Made by a program: the position numbers and the translations under genes. A stretch of DNA of 21,185 nucleotides from a virus, in the IMG/VR virus record IMGVR_UViG_3300049215_000519, positions 64,001 through 85,185 of that record; one strand, written 5' to 3'. Positions 10,084 through 19,792 of the stretch are shown here, piece after piece. The notes beneath the pieces were generated by a model. It was not told where the DNA came from. It did no database searches and worked only from the letters and a program-made list of their open reading frames with translations. The first letter of the stretch is position 1; each line of letters begins with the position of its first letter.

Positions 10084-10851
10084 GTGGTTGAAGATCCGAA
10101 GTGGAAAAACATCAACGAGGTCGCGGCGCAGTTCGCGGATGACGGCAACGGCAAGGGATTCCAACGCGCAGCTGTGCTTCACGGCTCGACGTTCAAGGAC
10201 TGCTCGACGGTCATCGTCGTCCCCAGTCGTGACGAGAAGTTCCATCATCGCGTGATCACGGCGTGGCAGAACCTGATCGCGCCGATGAACCAAAAGCGTT
10301 GCTTCCTGTTCGTGATCAACGATGAGGTTGGCGCTGCGTACACCAATACGATTCAGGGCATTCTCGCCAACCCCGAGATGTCTTCGTGGAAGTACATCAT
10401 GACGATGGAGAGCGACAACTTGCCCCCGCCCGATGCGCATATTCGTATGATCGAGACGATCGAGGCCGGACAATACGATGGTGTTTCAGGCATTTACTTT
10501 ACTAAGGGTGATGTGAACATGCCGATGGCCTACGGCGATCCCGAGGAGTTCCGCAAGACCGGCGTTCTGGATTTCCGGCCGCGCGACATCCGCGAGGCAC
10601 TGGCGAAGGGGCAGGTGATGGAGGTCAACGGCATCGCGATGGGCTGCTCGCTCTACCGCATGAGCCTGTTCAAGGAAGTCCAGCCGCCGTGGTTCGTCAC
10701 GCTGAATGACTACACCGAAGGCCAAGGCGCTGCGGCGATGACACAAGACCTCTACTTCTGTCGCGCGGCGCGCATGCAGGGCAAACGCTTCGCCGTCGAC
10801 TTCCGCGTTCGCGTGGGCCACATGGATCTCACCAGTGGAGAGGTGTACTGA
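10084..10851 (+). CDS. GT-A-type glycosyltransferase-like protein
   Basis: The 255-residue product has a GT-A-like arrangement. A first strand (STVIVVPSRD, residues 41-50) is followed by a helix with HHRVITAWQNL, a second strand (KRCFLFVIND), and a DXD-like acidic triplet in YIMTMESDN (ESD, residues 109-111) that would bind metal and nucleotide-sugar. A later segment is TQDLYFCRAARMQG (220-233), a pattern common in family 2 enzymes. It is the first gene of the sugar operon. GTG is the start because the promoter-like motif ends 6 bases before it. The next gene's ATG overlaps its TGA. Donor and acceptor cannot be deduced. It may glycosylate virion proteins or host surface polymer. Confidence 0.7.
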   Translation: MVEDPKWKNINEVAAQFADDGNGKGFQRAAVLHGSTFKDCSTVIVVPSRDEKFHHRVITAWQNLIAPMNQKRCFLFVINDEVGAAYTNTIQGILANPEMSSWKYIMTMESDNLPPPDAHIRMIETIEAGQYDGVSGIYFTKGDVNMPMAYGDPEEFRKTGVLDFRPRDIREALAKGQVMEVNGIAMGCSLYRMSLFKEVQPPWFVTLNDYTEGQGAAAMTQDLYFCRAARMQGKRFAVDFRVRVGHMDLTSGEVY

Positions 10852-11834
10852 TGGGCAAGAACGTTTTGATTACGGGCGCTGCTGGCTTCATCGGAAGTCA
10901 CGTTGCTCGCTACTTCGCGAGCAAGTACCCAGATTGGAAGATCAGCACGATCGAGCGGCTGAACTATGCTTCGGCGCTAGAGCGGCTGGTTCCTGTCGCC
11001 AGCCGGTTGAAGATTGTGCTGCACGATCTGCGAGCCCCAATCCCCGAGTATGTGCGCAACCAGCTCGGTGAGTTGGATCTCGTGTTTCACTTGGCGGCTG
11101 AGACCCACGTCGATCGCAGTTGCGTAGATCCTACACCGTTCGTCGAGTCGAACATCCTCGGCACGTTCAACATGCTCGAGTTCTGTCGGTTGTACCAGCC
11201 GAAGTTGCAGATGTTCTTCCAGATCTCGACTGACGAAGTCTACGGTCCTGCGCCAGTCGGAGTGGATCACACCGAAGAGGCACCACATCGGCCATCCAAT
11301 GTGTACTCGGCGACCAAGGCAGCGGCGGAAGATCTCGTGTATGCGTACGAGCACTCCATGGGGGTACCAGTCATCACGACGAACACGATGAACAACATCG
11401 CCCCCACACAAGCTGTTGAGAAGTACATCCCGCGCGTGATCAGGGCGCTCGTTCGAGGAGATCTCATCACGGTTCATGGGACGCCCGACAACGTTGGCAG
11501 TCGAAAGTATCTCCACGCGCGCGATCACGCGAGCGCTCTCGATTTCCTCATGTTCAACGGCAAGCGCGGAGAGCGATACAACGTCGTCGGAGCTGAAGAG
11601 GTTTCGAATCTCGACGTGGTGAGGCGGATCGAAGGTGTCTTGACAGATCTCGGTCGCCGTGTTGAAGCCAAAGTAAAGTTTCAGGATTTTCATCTCGGGC
11701 GCCCTGGTCACGATCGTCGCTACAGCCTTGACGGATCAAAGATGGCTGGCCTCGGCTGGACTCCGCCGACATCATTCGATGAGACGCTGCGTGAGATCGT
11801 TGGCTGGACCTTGGAGCATCCTGAATGGCTGTGA
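10851..11834 (+). CDS. dTDP-glucose 4,6-dehydratase-like NAD-dependent enzyme
   Basis: This 327-residue protein is a short-chain dehydrogenase of the extended epimerase/dehydratase type. The NAD-binding Gly motif GAAGFIGSH is at residues 9-17, the FHLAAETHVDRS motif at about 79-90, the STDEVYG motif at 126-132 (Asp-Glu as in dehydratases), and the catalytic YSATK at 152-156. NNIAPTQAVEKYIPRV corresponds to the NNYGPYQ...KLIP region of dTDP-glucose 4,6-dehydratase (RfbB/RmlB), which converts dTDP-glucose to the 4-keto-6-deoxy sugar. Length matches the family. It overlaps the glycosyltransferase gene by one base and the next small gene by 10 bases. Substrate assignment is by family resemblance; a related NDP-sugar dehydratase is possible. 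Confidence 0.85.
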   Translation: MGKNVLITGAAGFIGSHVARYFASKYPDWKISTIERLNYASALERLVPVASRLKIVLHDLRAPIPEYVRNQLGELDLVFHLAAETHVDRSCVDPTPFVESNILGTFNMLEFCRLYQPKLQMFFQISTDEVYGPAPVGVDHTEEAPHRPSNVYSATKAAAEDLVYAYEHSMGVPVITTNTMNNIAPTQAVEKYIPRVIRALVRGDLITVHGTPDNVGSRKYLHARDHASALDFLMFNGKRGERYNVVGAEEVSNLDVVRRIEGVLTDLGRRVEAKVKFQDFHLGRPGHDRRYSLDGSKMAGLGWTPPTSFDETLREIVGWTLEHPEWL

Positions 11835-12154
11835 TCGAGATCCGAACCTGCAAGCGCTGTGGTCAAGAGTTTCAGCCGACCGCTCGAGGCCAAAAGTATT
11901 GCGGCAAGCAGAAGGTGCGTGGGACCTGTCTCCAGGGGATTTATGAGCAAGAGCAAGATCAAGAAGCCGGGCGAGCACAACATCAGAACGCTGGGTCCTC
12001 CGACGCTGCCGATGGCTGCTTCGACGGTATCGCTCAAGATCGACCTCGGCTGCGGCCAGAACCCTCGCGAGGGCTTCGAAGGCGCCGATCGCGTCGCAGG
12101 GCCAACCGTCAAGCATGTCGTGAACCTGTTCCGCTACCCATGGCCGTGGGCTGA
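11825..12154 (+). CDS. zinc-ribbon-like small protein, possibly frameshifted
   Basis: The first 35 residues look real: MAVIEIRTCKRCGQEFQPTA, then RGQKYCGKQKVRGTC, a CxxC...C...C arrangement typical of small zinc ribbons. A TTGGAG precedes the ATG by about 9 bases. After the last Cys the frame continues about 210 bases inside the methyltransferase gene and becomes Arg/Gln-rich, like a shadow translation. At the GGGG tract near 11936-11939, reading back one base or one added G would give a TGA at 11944-11946, overlapping the methyltransferase ATG at 11943 (ATGA). A 40-residue protein broken by an indel, sequencing error or programmed -1 shift is therefore plausible. The coordinates give the uninterrupted frame. 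Confidence 0.45.
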   Translation: MAVIEIRTCKRCGQEFQPTARGQKYCGKQKVRGTCLQGIYEQEQDQEAGRAQHQNAGSSDAADGCFDGIAQDRPRLRPEPSRGLRRRRSRRRANRQACREPVPLPMAVG

Positions 12155-12593
12155 CAACTCCATCGAGCAGCTCAACGCGAGCCACTTCATCGAGCACATC
12201 CCAGACGTCGAAGTCGAGGCGGATGGCACCACGGCGGAGTGGGGTGAAGGGCAAGATGCGCTCTTGCGGTTCTTCGACGAGTGCTACCGCGTGTTGATCC
12301 CCGACGGCTGGCTGTTCCTGCAGTGGCCAAGCCTTCGTAGCAACCGAGCGTTTCAGGACCCGACGCATCGCCGCTTCATCCCCGAGGCAACGATGGGCTA
12401 CCTCGACCGCGACTGGCGCGTGTCGCAGAAGCTCGATCATTACAACGTCAAGTGCCACTTCAAGGCGTTCGACGTTGGGCACACCTACGACTCGTCGATC
12501 CACGCGCGTCACGATCAGGTTCGTGAGCGCTTCGTCCAAAATTATTGGAATGGTTCGATCGATTTTTGCGCGAAGTTAAAAGCTATCAAGTAG
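11943..12593 (+). CDS. class I SAM-dependent methyltransferase
   Basis: The 216-residue product carries methyltransferase motif I (KIDLGCGQNP, residues 32-41). HFIEHIPD follows, as in Methyltransf_11-type enzymes, then FFDECYRVLIPDGWLFLQWPS, the usual strand-turn after motif III. It lies last in the sugar operon, so a sugar, glycan or peptide substrate is likely, but DNA or small-molecule methylation cannot be excluded. ATG at 11943 was chosen because a Lys-rich natural N-terminus follows and upstream in-frame codons belong to the previous gene. The last 50-60 bases are A+T-richer than the rest. The final residues AKLKAIK are repeated at the end of the following HNH gene, showing that the 3' end was duplicated by an insertion. 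Confidence 0.8.
   Translation: MSKSKIKKPGEHNIRTLGPPTLPMAASTVSLKIDLGCGQNPREGFEGADRVAGPTVKHVVNLFRYPWPWADNSIEQLNASHFIEHIPDVEVEADGTTAEWGEGQDALLRFFDECYRVLIPDGWLFLQWPSLRSNRAFQDPTHRRFIPEATMGYLDRDWRVSQKLDHYNVKCHFKAFDVGHTYDSSIHARHDQVRERFVQNYWNGSIDFCAKLKAIK
12570..12593 (+). repeat. recoded copy of methyltransferase 3' end
   Basis: These eight codons (AKLKAIK plus TAG) recur at 13149-13172. The 24-bp copies differ at 5 positions, all synonymous; this upstream copy uses the A+T-richer codons TTA, AAA and GCT. It lies at the left edge of the HNH insertion. Confidence 0.85.
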
Positions 12594-13172
12594 ATGCCTC
12601 GTGGAGCCACAGTCATTGATTTACTTGGCCAGCGCTTTGGTCGGCTGGTGGTGATCGCGCAAATCGCCGAGCGAAAGGATCGGGGCGTAGTTTGGCGGTG
12701 TCGATGCGATTGCGGGAAGGACCACGATGTGAGGGGTGCAGGTCTACGACATGGGAAGACTAGGTCGTGTGGCTGCCTCCAAAAAGAGCGAAATGATTGT
12801 GGGCCTACTCATCGATGCTGGAGAGGTGTGGGAGACCTGCCAGGACGGTATTGGTATCAGGTGTTGACGGGGGCGGCTTCTCGCGGACTTTCAGTGTTGA
12901 TCACCATGGAACAGGCTTGGAACGTCTTCGTCAGTCAAGATGGAATCTGCGCGCTCAGCGGACGCAAACTCACGTTTGGTACCAGGAAGCGCGCGTGGCA
13001 GATGACTGCGTCTCTCGATCGCATCGATAGCTCACGAGGGTACGAAATGGACAACATCCAATGGATTCACAAGCGTCTGCAGTTCATGAAGAACAACCTG
13101 ACCGACGACGAGTTCGTAGGATGGTGTCGAGACATCGTCGATCACCAGGCCAAGCTCAAGGCGATCAAGTAG
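12594..13172 (+). CDS. HNH homing-type endonuclease
   Basis: The 192-residue protein has two parts. Residues 8-66 form a zinc-binding domain often found in phage HNH proteins (DLLGQRFGRLVV, CRCDCGK at 36-42, SCGC at 58-61). Residues 115-180 form the nuclease part with ICALSG, SLDRIDSS at 140-147 and MDNIQWIHK, the last His-like and Asn positions fitting a divergent HNH site. ATG immediately follows the methyltransferase TAG with no Shine-Dalgarno, so translation is probably coupled. The C-terminal AKLKAIK is not expected in HNH proteins and equals the methyltransferase terminus. Its TAG overlaps the GTG of the next gene. It is likely a free-standing mobile endonuclease gene, active or recently active. 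Confidence 0.8.
   Translation: MPRGATVIDLLGQRFGRLVVIAQIAERKDRGVVWRCRCDCGKDHDVRGAGLRHGKTRSCGCLQKERNDCGPTHRCWRGVGDLPGRYWYQVLTGAASRGLSVLITMEQAWNVFVSQDGICALSGRKLTFGTRKRAWQMTASLDRIDSSRGYEMDNIQWIHKRLQFMKNNLTDDEFVGWCRDIVDHQAKLKAIK
13149..13172 (+). repeat. ancestral-looking copy of methyltransferase 3' end
   Basis: This copy encodes AKLKAIK plus TAG with G+C-rich codons and is now the 3' end of the HNH gene. Its TAG overlaps the GTG start at 13172, and its AAGG can act as a weak Shine-Dalgarno for that gene, which may explain why this copy kept its DNA sequence. Confidence 0.85.
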
Positions 13173-13357
13173 TGAAGGCGTACGTGCTGCAGTTCCCGCA
13201 AGGTGGGCGGCTCGTGATCCACGCTGATGAGTCTCGGGTCCACCTCGAGTCGACGATCAACGACACGAAGATCCTCATCACCGTCGAGCCCGACATCGCG
13301 CGTGAGATTGCAGACGCGATCACCGAAATCTCCCAGCTGATCAAGGTCGCCAACTGA
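13172..13357 (+). CDS. small hypothetical protein (61 aa)
   Basis: The product starts MKAYVLQFPQGGRLVIHADE and ends in an Ile-rich amphipathic helix (REIADAITEISQLIKVAN). It has a beta-hairpin-plus-helix look, with no Cys and no membrane segment. I chose the GTG that overlaps the preceding TAG because such overlaps are frequent in this genome and protein-like sequence starts exactly there. Before the HNH insertion this gene would have overlapped the methyltransferase stop in the same way. Its TGA overlaps the next ATG by one base. Function unknown. Confidence 0.6.
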   Translation: MKAYVLQFPQGGRLVIHADESRVHLESTINDTKILITVEPDIAREIADAITEISQLIKVAN

Positions 13358-13605
13358 TGTCGAAATGGGAGAAAAACGAACGTGATGTGCTCAGAAGTCG
13401 ATGTACCGATCAGACGTGGAACGTTGCTCGGCAGAGCGATGGCTACGTGAGCTACGAAGCGGCTCAGCTCGCCGTGATGCAGGACATCCGCGACGAGCTG
13501 AAGAAGCTCAACGCGATCTTCCACTGCTCGAACGCGCTCGAGATCCCGACCATCCTCCGTCAAATCAGAAGAAATACGACCAAGCACAAAGCCAAGAGAA
13601 AGTAG
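13357..13605 (+). CDS. small basic hypothetical protein (82 aa)
   Basis: The 82-residue product is soluble and basic at both ends. It starts MSKWEKNERDVLRSRCTDQT, has a central helix (AVMQDIRDELKKLNAIF) with coiled-coil character, and ends in NTTKHKAKRK. Two Cys are present. The one-base overlap with the previous gene (TGATG) indicates the same operon. It is the last gene of the operon that began at 10084; a new leaderless promoter-like site starts 10 bases after its stop. A nucleic-acid-binding or virion-internal role would fit the charge, but I recognise no family. Confidence 0.6.
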   Translation: MSKWEKNERDVLRSRCTDQTWNVARQSDGYVSYEAAQLAVMQDIRDELKKLNAIFHCSNALEIPTILRQIRRNTTKHKAKRK

Positions 13606-13615
13606 CTAGAAGCCG

Positions 13616-13630
13616 TGGTACTTTACGGTC
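13616..13630 (+). promoter_or_regulatory. extended -10 with leaderless start
   Basis: TGGTACTTT (extended -10, 13616-13624) ends 6 bases before the ATG at 13631. There is no Shine-Dalgarno and no 11-bp GCTGTCAGACC box here. Confidence 0.5.
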
Positions 13631-13939
13631 ATGACCTATATTCGTACGTACGGGCTGCACGATGGGTCTTATACTTCGACCGATCTGCAGGCAGGACTGC
13701 ATAGTTGCATTGCAGACTGTGATAGGGACAGCCCGAACGATCCTGGCCATCAAGTTTGTACTGATAGCTGCGCTGCCGCGTTTCCAACTGCTATAAATCC
13801 TACCACCTCAGGAGATCTTCCTGGAGGCTTGGCGCCACCCCCTGGATACAACCCGGCTAAGCCAATCAACTGGTATCGAACGGGTGGGGCCGCTTTGCTG
13901 GGAATCGTCGTCGGAATTGCTCTAGCTATTAGAGGATAG
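13631..13939 (+). CDS. tail-anchored protein with twin CX3C motif (102 aa)
   Basis: The product has an N-terminal soluble part with two CX3C motifs: C26, C30, C43 and C47, spaced CX3C-X12-CX3C. This is the pattern of a disulfide-stapled helical hairpin. A Pro/Gly-rich linker (about 57-80) leads to a single C-terminal membrane segment (GGAALLGIVVGIALAI, 85-100) ending RG. This topology would expose the Cys domain on one side of a membrane. It and the next gene are distinctly A+T-richer in codon use than their neighbours. It probably forms an operon with the following gene, 4 bases downstream. I recognise no family; a virion or cell-envelope membrane protein is inferred. Confidence 0.6.
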   Translation: MTYIRTYGLHDGSYTSTDLQAGLHSCIADCDRDSPNDPGHQVCTDSCAAAFPTAINPTTSGDLPGGLAPPPGYNPAKPINWYRTGGAALLGIVVGIALAIRG

Positions 13940-19018: not shown

Positions 19019-19235
19019 CCAGTTCTTCTGCATAGGCGAGCGCGCAGCGGACCGATGCAGCCTCGATCGGCAGCAGGTCTCCCCGCTTCGCGCGGTCCAC
19101 GCAGTAGCGAGTCCTGCAGGTCATGAGCAGCACGCCGATGAACCGCGCTCCCACGAGCGTGGACGAGTCTCCGTCGAGAGGGGCGCCGCAGATGCGGCAG
19201 GACCACTCGCACGGCGCCGTGTTGCGCTGGGTCAC
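18912..19235 (-). CDS. Cys-rich zinc-ribbon-like protein
   Basis: The N-terminal part has CEWSCRICGAP (residues 9-19) and a later CRTRYC and RCALAYAEELV, giving a possible zinc ribbon followed by a helix. From about residue 78 (WRSLPHPPLRPQ) the frame runs antisense through the plus-strand gene at 18746 and looks like shadow sequence. GTG overlaps the TGA of the upstream HNH gene by four bases. The original stop was probably lost when the leftward block was joined tail-to-tail to the rightward operon. Function unknown. Confidence 0.5.
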   Translation of the reverse strand: MTQRNTAPCEWSCRICGAPLDGDSSTLVGARFIGVLLMTCRTRYCVDRAKRGDLLPIEAASVRCALAYAEELVKSWGTWRSLPHPPLRPQLRVGPAASVEPPSLRRP

Positions 19236-19792
19236 ACCCCAGATCGTTTCTTGGCGAATGCTGCTCGAGCCTTGGCTGCCGATGCTTGAATGGCTGGGCT
19301 AGTTCTGCCTTTCTTAGCCTTGCTGATTTGCTCGCCACGCCTTGGCTTGGTGATCGGCGAACCGCCTACCCAACGATATTGGTTGACGATATCGCTGATG
19401 TGCCCAGAGCTAACACCAAACCGTTCCGCAAGTTGAGTGTATGAAAGTCCCTGCTTGACCGAGTCTCTGATGCTCTGCGCATCGTCCGCTGTTAGCTTGG
19501 TGCTCCTCAAGTTTCGGTTCTGCTCAGTAACCGTGGCCCAACGGCAGTTACTTGGTTTGTAGTCGCCATCTTTGTCAGGCCAGCGGTCAAGCGTCTTATC
19601 CTCAGGCCTCAGCCCCATGTCTTCTAGAAAGTTTCTGAACTTTCGCCATCGTAGGCAGACCTTGATTCCGCGACCACCGTATCGAGCGTACTCGTCATTT
19701 TTTGGGTTGGTGCAGCGTTGGATCATGTGCTGCCACGAGTAGTAGGTAGGGCTGGCTCCACCTGACCACGTATGGCTGTGAGCGCTATTCAT
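19232..19792 (-). CDS. HNH endonuclease with C-terminal helix-turn-helix
   Basis: The 186-residue protein has the common phage HNH layout: TYYSWQHMIQRCTNP near residues 16-30, YARYGGRGIKVC at 35-46, FRNFLEDMG at 52-60, then LDRWPDKDGDYKPSNCRWAT at 68-87 holding the HNH-type core. A helix-turn-helix follows (about 100-141, SYTQLAERFGVSSGHISDIV) that could direct DNA binding, and a basic Ala/Lys tail ends it. The start overlaps the TSCPD gene stop by 8 bases and the end overlaps the next gene (GTGA). It is probably a free-standing homing-type endonuclease in the leftward block. Unlike the HNH gene at 12594, I see no duplicated neighbouring gene end. Confidence 0.75.
   Translation of the reverse strand: MNSAHSHTWSGGASPTYYSWQHMIQRCTNPKNDEYARYGGRGIKVCLRWRKFRNFLEDMGLRPEDKTLDRWPDKDGDYKPSNCRWATVTEQNRNLRSTKLTADDAQSIRDSVKQGLSYTQLAERFGVSSGHISDIVNQYRWVGGSPITKPRRGEQISKAKKGRTSPAIQASAAKARAAFAKKRSGV

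Follow-up and report, generated by a model that had tools for sequence, protein, structure and literature searches.

The stretch of DNA that we analysed, hereafter the window, is 21,185 bp long and corresponds to positions 64001-85185 of an 85,185 bp virus record in IMG/VR. Genes for a glycosyltransferase (10084-10851) and a nucleotide-sugar epimerase/dehydratase (10851-11834) lie upstream of a gene for a SAM-dependent methyltransferase (MT; 11943-12593, plus strand, 216 aa). The MT stop codon, TAG (12591-12593), abuts without a gap the ATG (12594) of a gene for an HNH endonuclease (12594-13172, plus strand, 192 aa), i.e., the endonuclease ORF adjoins a complete host gene that stops at 12593. 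The HNH ORF fills the 579-bp insertion, in which no integrase ORF is found. It is followed by a gene for a 61-aa protein (13172-13357, plus strand), whose GTG start overlaps the preceding TAG by one base. Neither the 61-aa gene nor the HNH protein has close relatives in IMG/VR. A further ORF (11825-11946), which overlaps the MT start codon, carries a zinc-type motif (CKRCGQEF...YCGKQK), and its first 40 aa weakly resemble the zinc part of the HNH/NinG families.

An earlier note on this DNA had claimed that the MT and the HNH protein end in the same seven residues, AKLKAIK, followed by TAG, and both the coordinates and the two translations agree with that claim. The two 24-bp copies, one at the end of the MT (12570-12593, plus strand) and the other comprising the last seven HNH codons and the stop (13149-13172, plus strand), are in frame, lie 579 bp apart, and are identical at 19 of 24 positions, with the five differences all synonymous, also as described. 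When the two ends are aligned at the stop codon they score 33; a score of 30 was not reached once among 36,672 cross-locus pairings of an upstream-gene end with an HNH end. The duplication is short (seven residues), but it is confirmed as real.

The note had further described the MT end as A+T-rich. The last 18 codons (12537-12590) have a GC3 of 0.44, whereas 18-codon windows from 11 genes of the phage average 0.77. In codon preference they score lower than each of the 181 MT-body windows and rank among the lowest 17 of the 1081 windows taken from the 11 genes. Since this shift starts ~33 bp ahead of the duplicated 24 bp, simple copying does not account for the left end. We propose that the segment at 12537-12593 (plus strand; 18 codons and TAG), with its A+T-rich composition and a codon style unlike that of the phage, is a replacement MT end, and that the MT, as the presumptive target gene, is a hybrid of a resident body and a replaced end. 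The right copy is written in the phage's own codon style, as previously noted, and its TAG (13170-13172) shares one base, 13172, with the GTG of the next gene, again in line with the earlier description. It is the proposed remnant of the old MT end, and the start of the 61-aa gene at the remnant's TAG is proposed to be the ancestral junction between the MT and the next gene.

To which of the two proteins do the seven residues belong? The MT gives weak matches to Methyltransf_11 and phrog_5399, and its AlphaFold2 model (pLDDT 86) has class-I methyltransferases as its PDB fold neighbors. Residues 207-214 form the last core β-strand in that model (pLDDT about 98), and the loss of this strand would probably break the enzyme. 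The best MT relative, at locus L010 (62% best-segment identity), is encoded in the same glycosyltransferase-epimerase-MT gene order as in the window, and ends in ...FDFHAKLKAIK (NHYWNGKFDFHAKLKAIK); at L009, the synteny comprises glycosyltransferase and MT. The MTs at L012 (YWNAVTDLQIQLKAIK), L013 (YWNAVTDLSVQLKAIK), and L089 (LIELKAVK) have ends of the LKAIK/LKAVK type, and about 100 MT homologs share the terminal strand motif. No HNH match of the window type was found behind the MT at L010, L012, L013, L089, or other loci with MT homologs; the absence of the HNH gene from the equivalent place in L010, L009, and other MT loci amounts to a presence/absence polymorphism. The HNH homologs, on the other hand, stop a few residues past the ...C..I..H/N segment and lack AKLKAIK. 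Because the L010 end is identical, about 100 homologs share the motif, the residues belong to a core strand, and HNH homologs lack them, we assign AKLKAIK, from these sequence comparisons, to the MT as its own end. The earlier note had named two observations that would speak against its model, namely HNH homologs that normally end in AKLKAIK, and an uninserted relative that matches the left copy at the DNA level. We encountered neither: the ends of the HNH homologs differ, and the HNH-free L010 MT itself ends in AKLKAIK. The last 24 bases of L010 match the right copy at 20 of 24 positions and the left copy at 19 of 24, in an MT too divergent (62% identity) for this difference to discriminate between the copies, and no close HNH-free relative of the window genome was found.

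The HNH protein combines an N-terminal zinc-ribbon-like part (GQRFGRL...CxCDCG...SCGC), which is putatively DNA-binding, with a catalytic part of the HNH/EndoVII type (CALSG...SLDRID...NIQW). Profile matches were obtained to phrog_374 (HNH endonuclease, 1.4e-23), phrog_3322, and phrog_1035 (endonuclease VII), whilst no Pfam family reached threshold. Among solved structures, PacI alone is related by sequence (E=1.2e-5); it is also the top fold match, albeit a weak one. The catalytic motif of the family, SLDRID, is atypical in that it has R where EndoVII has the catalytic H. At L007 and L124, which carry the same element, the natural tail of the HNH homolog is DHQAGLVAQK, which partly resembles DHQAKLKAIK in the window (junction comparison: GATCACCAGGCCAAGCTC, window; GATCACCAAGCAGGACTC, L007; CACGCCAAGCTG, L010). 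Given that tail, "DHQA" in the window was probably part of the HNH protein from the outset, and the HNH gene and the MT end may have been joined at the short homology there.

The clearest comparison at the DNA level came from Lactococcus phages of the genus Skunavirus. Among the 16 named phages first examined, the pattern was present only in phi93, in which a methylase gene precedes an HNH gene, with a 33-residue stump of a methylase end behind the latter. Compared with the HNH-free Skunavirus Phi155, the phi93 methylase keeps 98-100% identity for ~650 bp, after which an abrupt change leads into a foreign end that carries a stop codon of its own. Behind the HNH gene, a stretch of 106 bp shows 100% identity to the methylase ends that are native to Phi155, Phi17, MP1, and others. 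The HNH gene is thus present in phi93 and absent from the same site in a close relative. The DNA closest to the foreign end outside Lactococcus phages is in Agrobacterium phage Atu_ph07 (74% over 101 bp). Foreign methylase ends also occur in phages with no HNH gene: Phi40 (L376) has the foreign end, phi145 (L378) has it joined to the last ~20 native bases, and Phi109 (L377) carries a frameshifted recombinant of foreign and native ends. FB14 (L379) has the foreign end as well, at 96.9% identity. The ends in Phi40, Phi109, phi145, and FB14 are apparent scars left after loss of the HNH gene. A methylase with such an end, M.Phi145I, is active and protects DNA from HphI (PMC4190342). The HNH gene is reported in the same paper, the consulted part of which does not mention a duplicated gene end.

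A second HNH gene in phi93 (L381, 8133-8630), which belongs to another subfamily, is located at the overlapping HSP2/HSP3 junction and is associated with an 18-bp duplicated end. HSP2 of phi93 ends in VVSNGL and the HNH protein in EVSNGI, compared with LVSNGI in HNH-free sk1 (L383, 6080-6150); the right copy is identical to sk1 at 17 of 18 bp and the left copy at 15 of 18. Judged by these ends, this second case appears to be the arrangement of the window in miniature, with the old gene end serving as the end of the HNH gene, although natural variation at the HSP2 site in phi15 tempers it. The earlier note had predicted such a result, namely that an uninserted relative matches the right copy. 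Two candidates from phi15 were discarded: the HNH insertion between TerS and TerL is clean and without duplication, and the apparent repeat at the HNH gene at 26364-26864 is probably a repeat of the HNH domain. For the window, the Skunavirus phages represent DNA-level proof by analogy.

HNH loci were also drawn from IMG/VR with three queries, giving 206 non-redundant loci, and the translated 400-nt flanks on either side of the HNH domain were compared (E<=0.01) in a composition-corrected test with cross-locus pairing and ordinary genes as controls. This test replaced a first DNA/protein scan of 84 loci, which was noisy for GC-rich frames. A gene end was duplicated across the HNH gene at 13 of the 206 loci, against 0.19 expected from cross-locus pairing, i.e., ~70 times the expectation. 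Among ordinary genes on the same and related contigs, 6 of 613 showed a duplication, and half of these six are repeat proteins or nuclease paralogs (Fisher p=7e-5 for HNH loci versus control genes, or 3e-6 without those three controls). The window case is too short for the flank test and was called by the end test aligned at the stop codon, as was one additional case, L326. Gene-end duplication across HNH genes is therefore general and extends beyond the window. Most surveyed HNH loci nevertheless show no duplication, and we checked three other HNH-type genes in the 85-kb genome itself (window 19232-19792, minus strand; L003:3233-3835; L003:4937-5428), none of which has duplicated flanks, so that the duplication marks a subclass and is not the rule.

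Most of the positive loci combine an intact upstream gene with a remnant located at, or within, the HNH C-terminus. L327, L323, L155, L239, L233, L357, and L153 show a whole upstream gene, the HNH gene, and then a stump of the upstream gene's end; at L248, L353, L195, L166, and L190 (the last with E=0.022, beyond the 0.01 cut-off), the HNH frame continues to the end of the stump, as it does in the window. Our own reading of the sequences, made without database assignment, suggests that the targets are methyltransferase-like at L327, nucleotidyltransferase-like at L323, and DNA-polymerase-like at L190. L127 (2001-3734) and L151 (2884-4226) are mirror images, in which a second copy of the 5′ start of the downstream gene precedes the HNH gene or is fused to it. 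Identical residues are mostly specified by different codons in the two copies, with only about 40-60% of the codons shared at such residues in these other cases, so that the duplications are not recent copies. L155, L166, L195, and L233 have no close relatives in INPHARED. We set aside L123, because of its tandem HNH genes, and L148, L158, and L192, because of their low-complexity frames. At L123 (1-1595), an HNH-domain fragment directly precedes a related HNH gene, as though the gene had been duplicated in tandem or inserted serially. In Streptomyces phages LukeCage and Jada (L360, L374), the HNH gene lies directly behind a gene annotated as a Ro-like RNA-binding protein, and a similar-looking gene is found upstream of the HNH-type gene at L195.

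We conclude, with a probability of about 85%, that a free-standing HNH gene of the homing type inserted near the 3′ end of the MT gene and brought with it a replacement copy of that end. The model in the earlier note, in which the element supplies a new end, the old end stays downstream, and the HNH frame reads through it, is thereby supported, at the DNA level in Skunavirus and by its recurrence elsewhere. In such a scenario, the endonuclease would cut the native gene end of a recipient phage, and repair would join the recipient gene, by homology inside the gene, to the donor's diverged end and HNH gene. On the far side, the end of the HNH gene would be connected with whatever remained of the gene end originally present in the recipient. 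The MT would stay whole because it receives a new end, and the old end would persist as a downstream remnant, which in the window would be the last seven HNH codons. An in-frame stump would provide the HNH gene with its C-terminus and stop. The re-spelled end, being diverged across the cut region, would be expected to escape renewed cleavage. The foreign segment starts about 15-35 bp before the start of the stump, in the window as well as in phi93, which would fit a cut inside that interval. Cleavage, immunity, and homing are inferred for the window element. We also think it rather probable that there is a widespread, hitherto unrecognized class of phage HNH elements whose payload includes a diverged replacement end for the gene that they cut, which accounts for several per cent of HNH loci in several subfamilies, mostly at 3′ and sometimes at 5′ ends, and swaps gene ends between distantly related phages, such that foreign ends persist after the HNH gene is lost.

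Ordinary gene conversion might produce a similar picture, if the donor had its HNH gene cleanly between intact genes. The MT end would then be a tract of co-conversion, and the fused remnant would result from a single mishap during repair instead of being part of what the element carries. Phage homing is known to alter the sequence flanking the insertion site, as described in the consulted part of PMC2988022, and the many HNH loci without duplication agree with such a process. It differs from our preferred explanation mainly in regularity, and the recurrence at 14 or more loci, in several HNH subfamilies and at 3′ and rarely 5′ ends, points to a regular product; we thus consider it unlikely for the window, whilst it describes how an element of this kind could first arise. 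A local tandem duplication of the gene end upon HNH insertion, comparable to a target-site duplication, with the copies drifting apart afterwards, would explain why in-frame copies lie on either side of the HNH gene, and insertions are commonly accompanied by short direct repeats. Drift does not, however, account for phi93, because there the right copy is 100% identical to the relatives, whilst the left end departs from them abruptly, over its entire length and also at the protein level. The onset of the codon shift about 33 bp before the 24-bp copy in the window, and the low codon sharing at the other loci, likewise argue against a duplication of this type, which we regard as very unlikely.

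Still less credence can be given to chance or convergence, by which the HNH protein would merely happen to end in the MT's seven residues. The DHQAGLVAQK tail at L007/L124 means that the A, L, A, and K of the match could be native to the HNH protein, yet the stop codon and 19 of 24 bases match as well, not one cross-locus pair attained the score, and the architecture recurs at HNH genes far above expectation and independently in phi93. A splicing element, either a group I intron or an intein, with a repeated exon end deserves mention, given that HNH genes often ride in introns and that the length of the insertion is a multiple of three. It can practically be dismissed: an in-frame MT stop directly precedes the HNH ATG, no Rfam match was found in 11900-13700, and, judging by its model, the MT is complete without splicing.

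Integrase-type elements at tRNA genes and icd provide a replacement 3′ gene end with synonymous changes; these use a site-specific integrase and att sites, whereas the insertion in the window holds an HNH ORF only. A like architecture is seen in the mobile endonuclease ORFs (mORFs) of fungal mitochondria, which carry foreign gene ends at atp6 in Allomyces macrogynus and at atp6, atp9, cox2, and nad3 in Glomus (PMC3630166), and the parallel to Allomyces atp6 drawn in the earlier note is apt (PMC3630166). As proposed for the window, an endonuclease gene follows a host gene with a foreign C-terminal part, and the native C-terminus lies downstream; in the fungal elements, the native copy matches relatives and the inserted copy is diverged, sometimes with an in-frame connection to the endonuclease ORF (PMC3630166). 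The fungal elements are mitochondrial and encode LAGLIDADG or GIY-YIG enzymes, whereas ours are HNH elements in double-stranded DNA phages, with ends of 7 to about 40 codons. Since the window endonuclease is HNH/PacI-like rather than LAGLIDADG or GIY-YIG, the element would work like a fungal mORF but is not a member of that group.

Free-standing homing endonucleases of phages, such as T4 Seg/Mob and the Skunavirus HNHE, share with the window an intron-less gene beside a presumed target, and alter the flanks upon homing, but in the consulted parts of PMC2988022 and PMC12724721 their insertions are intergenic or approximately located, and no replaced or duplicated ends are described. The ShiLan domain is likewise an HNH element in a phage methylase gene, with no intron or intein detected, but it lies inside the gene, with the host frame open through it, and the part of PMC11855218 that was consulted does not mention a duplicated end. 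Cyanophage F-CphI is free-standing, has an EndoVII-type motif, and leaves its own genome protected by an altered target; in this collaborative homing, protection comes from an intron in the target, rather than from a re-spelled gene end (PMC6083498). No account of replaced or duplicated gene ends was found in the consulted parts of PMC10448857, PMC11855218, PMC2988022, PMC12724721, and PMC4190342, which deal with phage HNH and homing genes, and literature searches on this subject yielded no relevant publication, although earlier reports are possible. The architecture is thus known from fungal mitochondria, and what is new here is the endonuclease family and the type of genome, for which we found no phage report.

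The arrangement would explain how a selfish nuclease gene can enter coding sequence in the compact genome of a phage without a self-splicing intron or intein, by mending the gene that it breaks. Since the start of the remnant marks the likely cut region, the targets of many uncharacterized HNH proteins may become readable from sequence. The same process offers a cause for abrupt mosaic switches within phage genes, such as those in phi93, Phi40, phi145, and Phi109. Finally, the states before insertion, with the HNH gene in place, and after its loss are all represented among culturable Skunavirus phages, so that the entire cycle is open to direct experiment.
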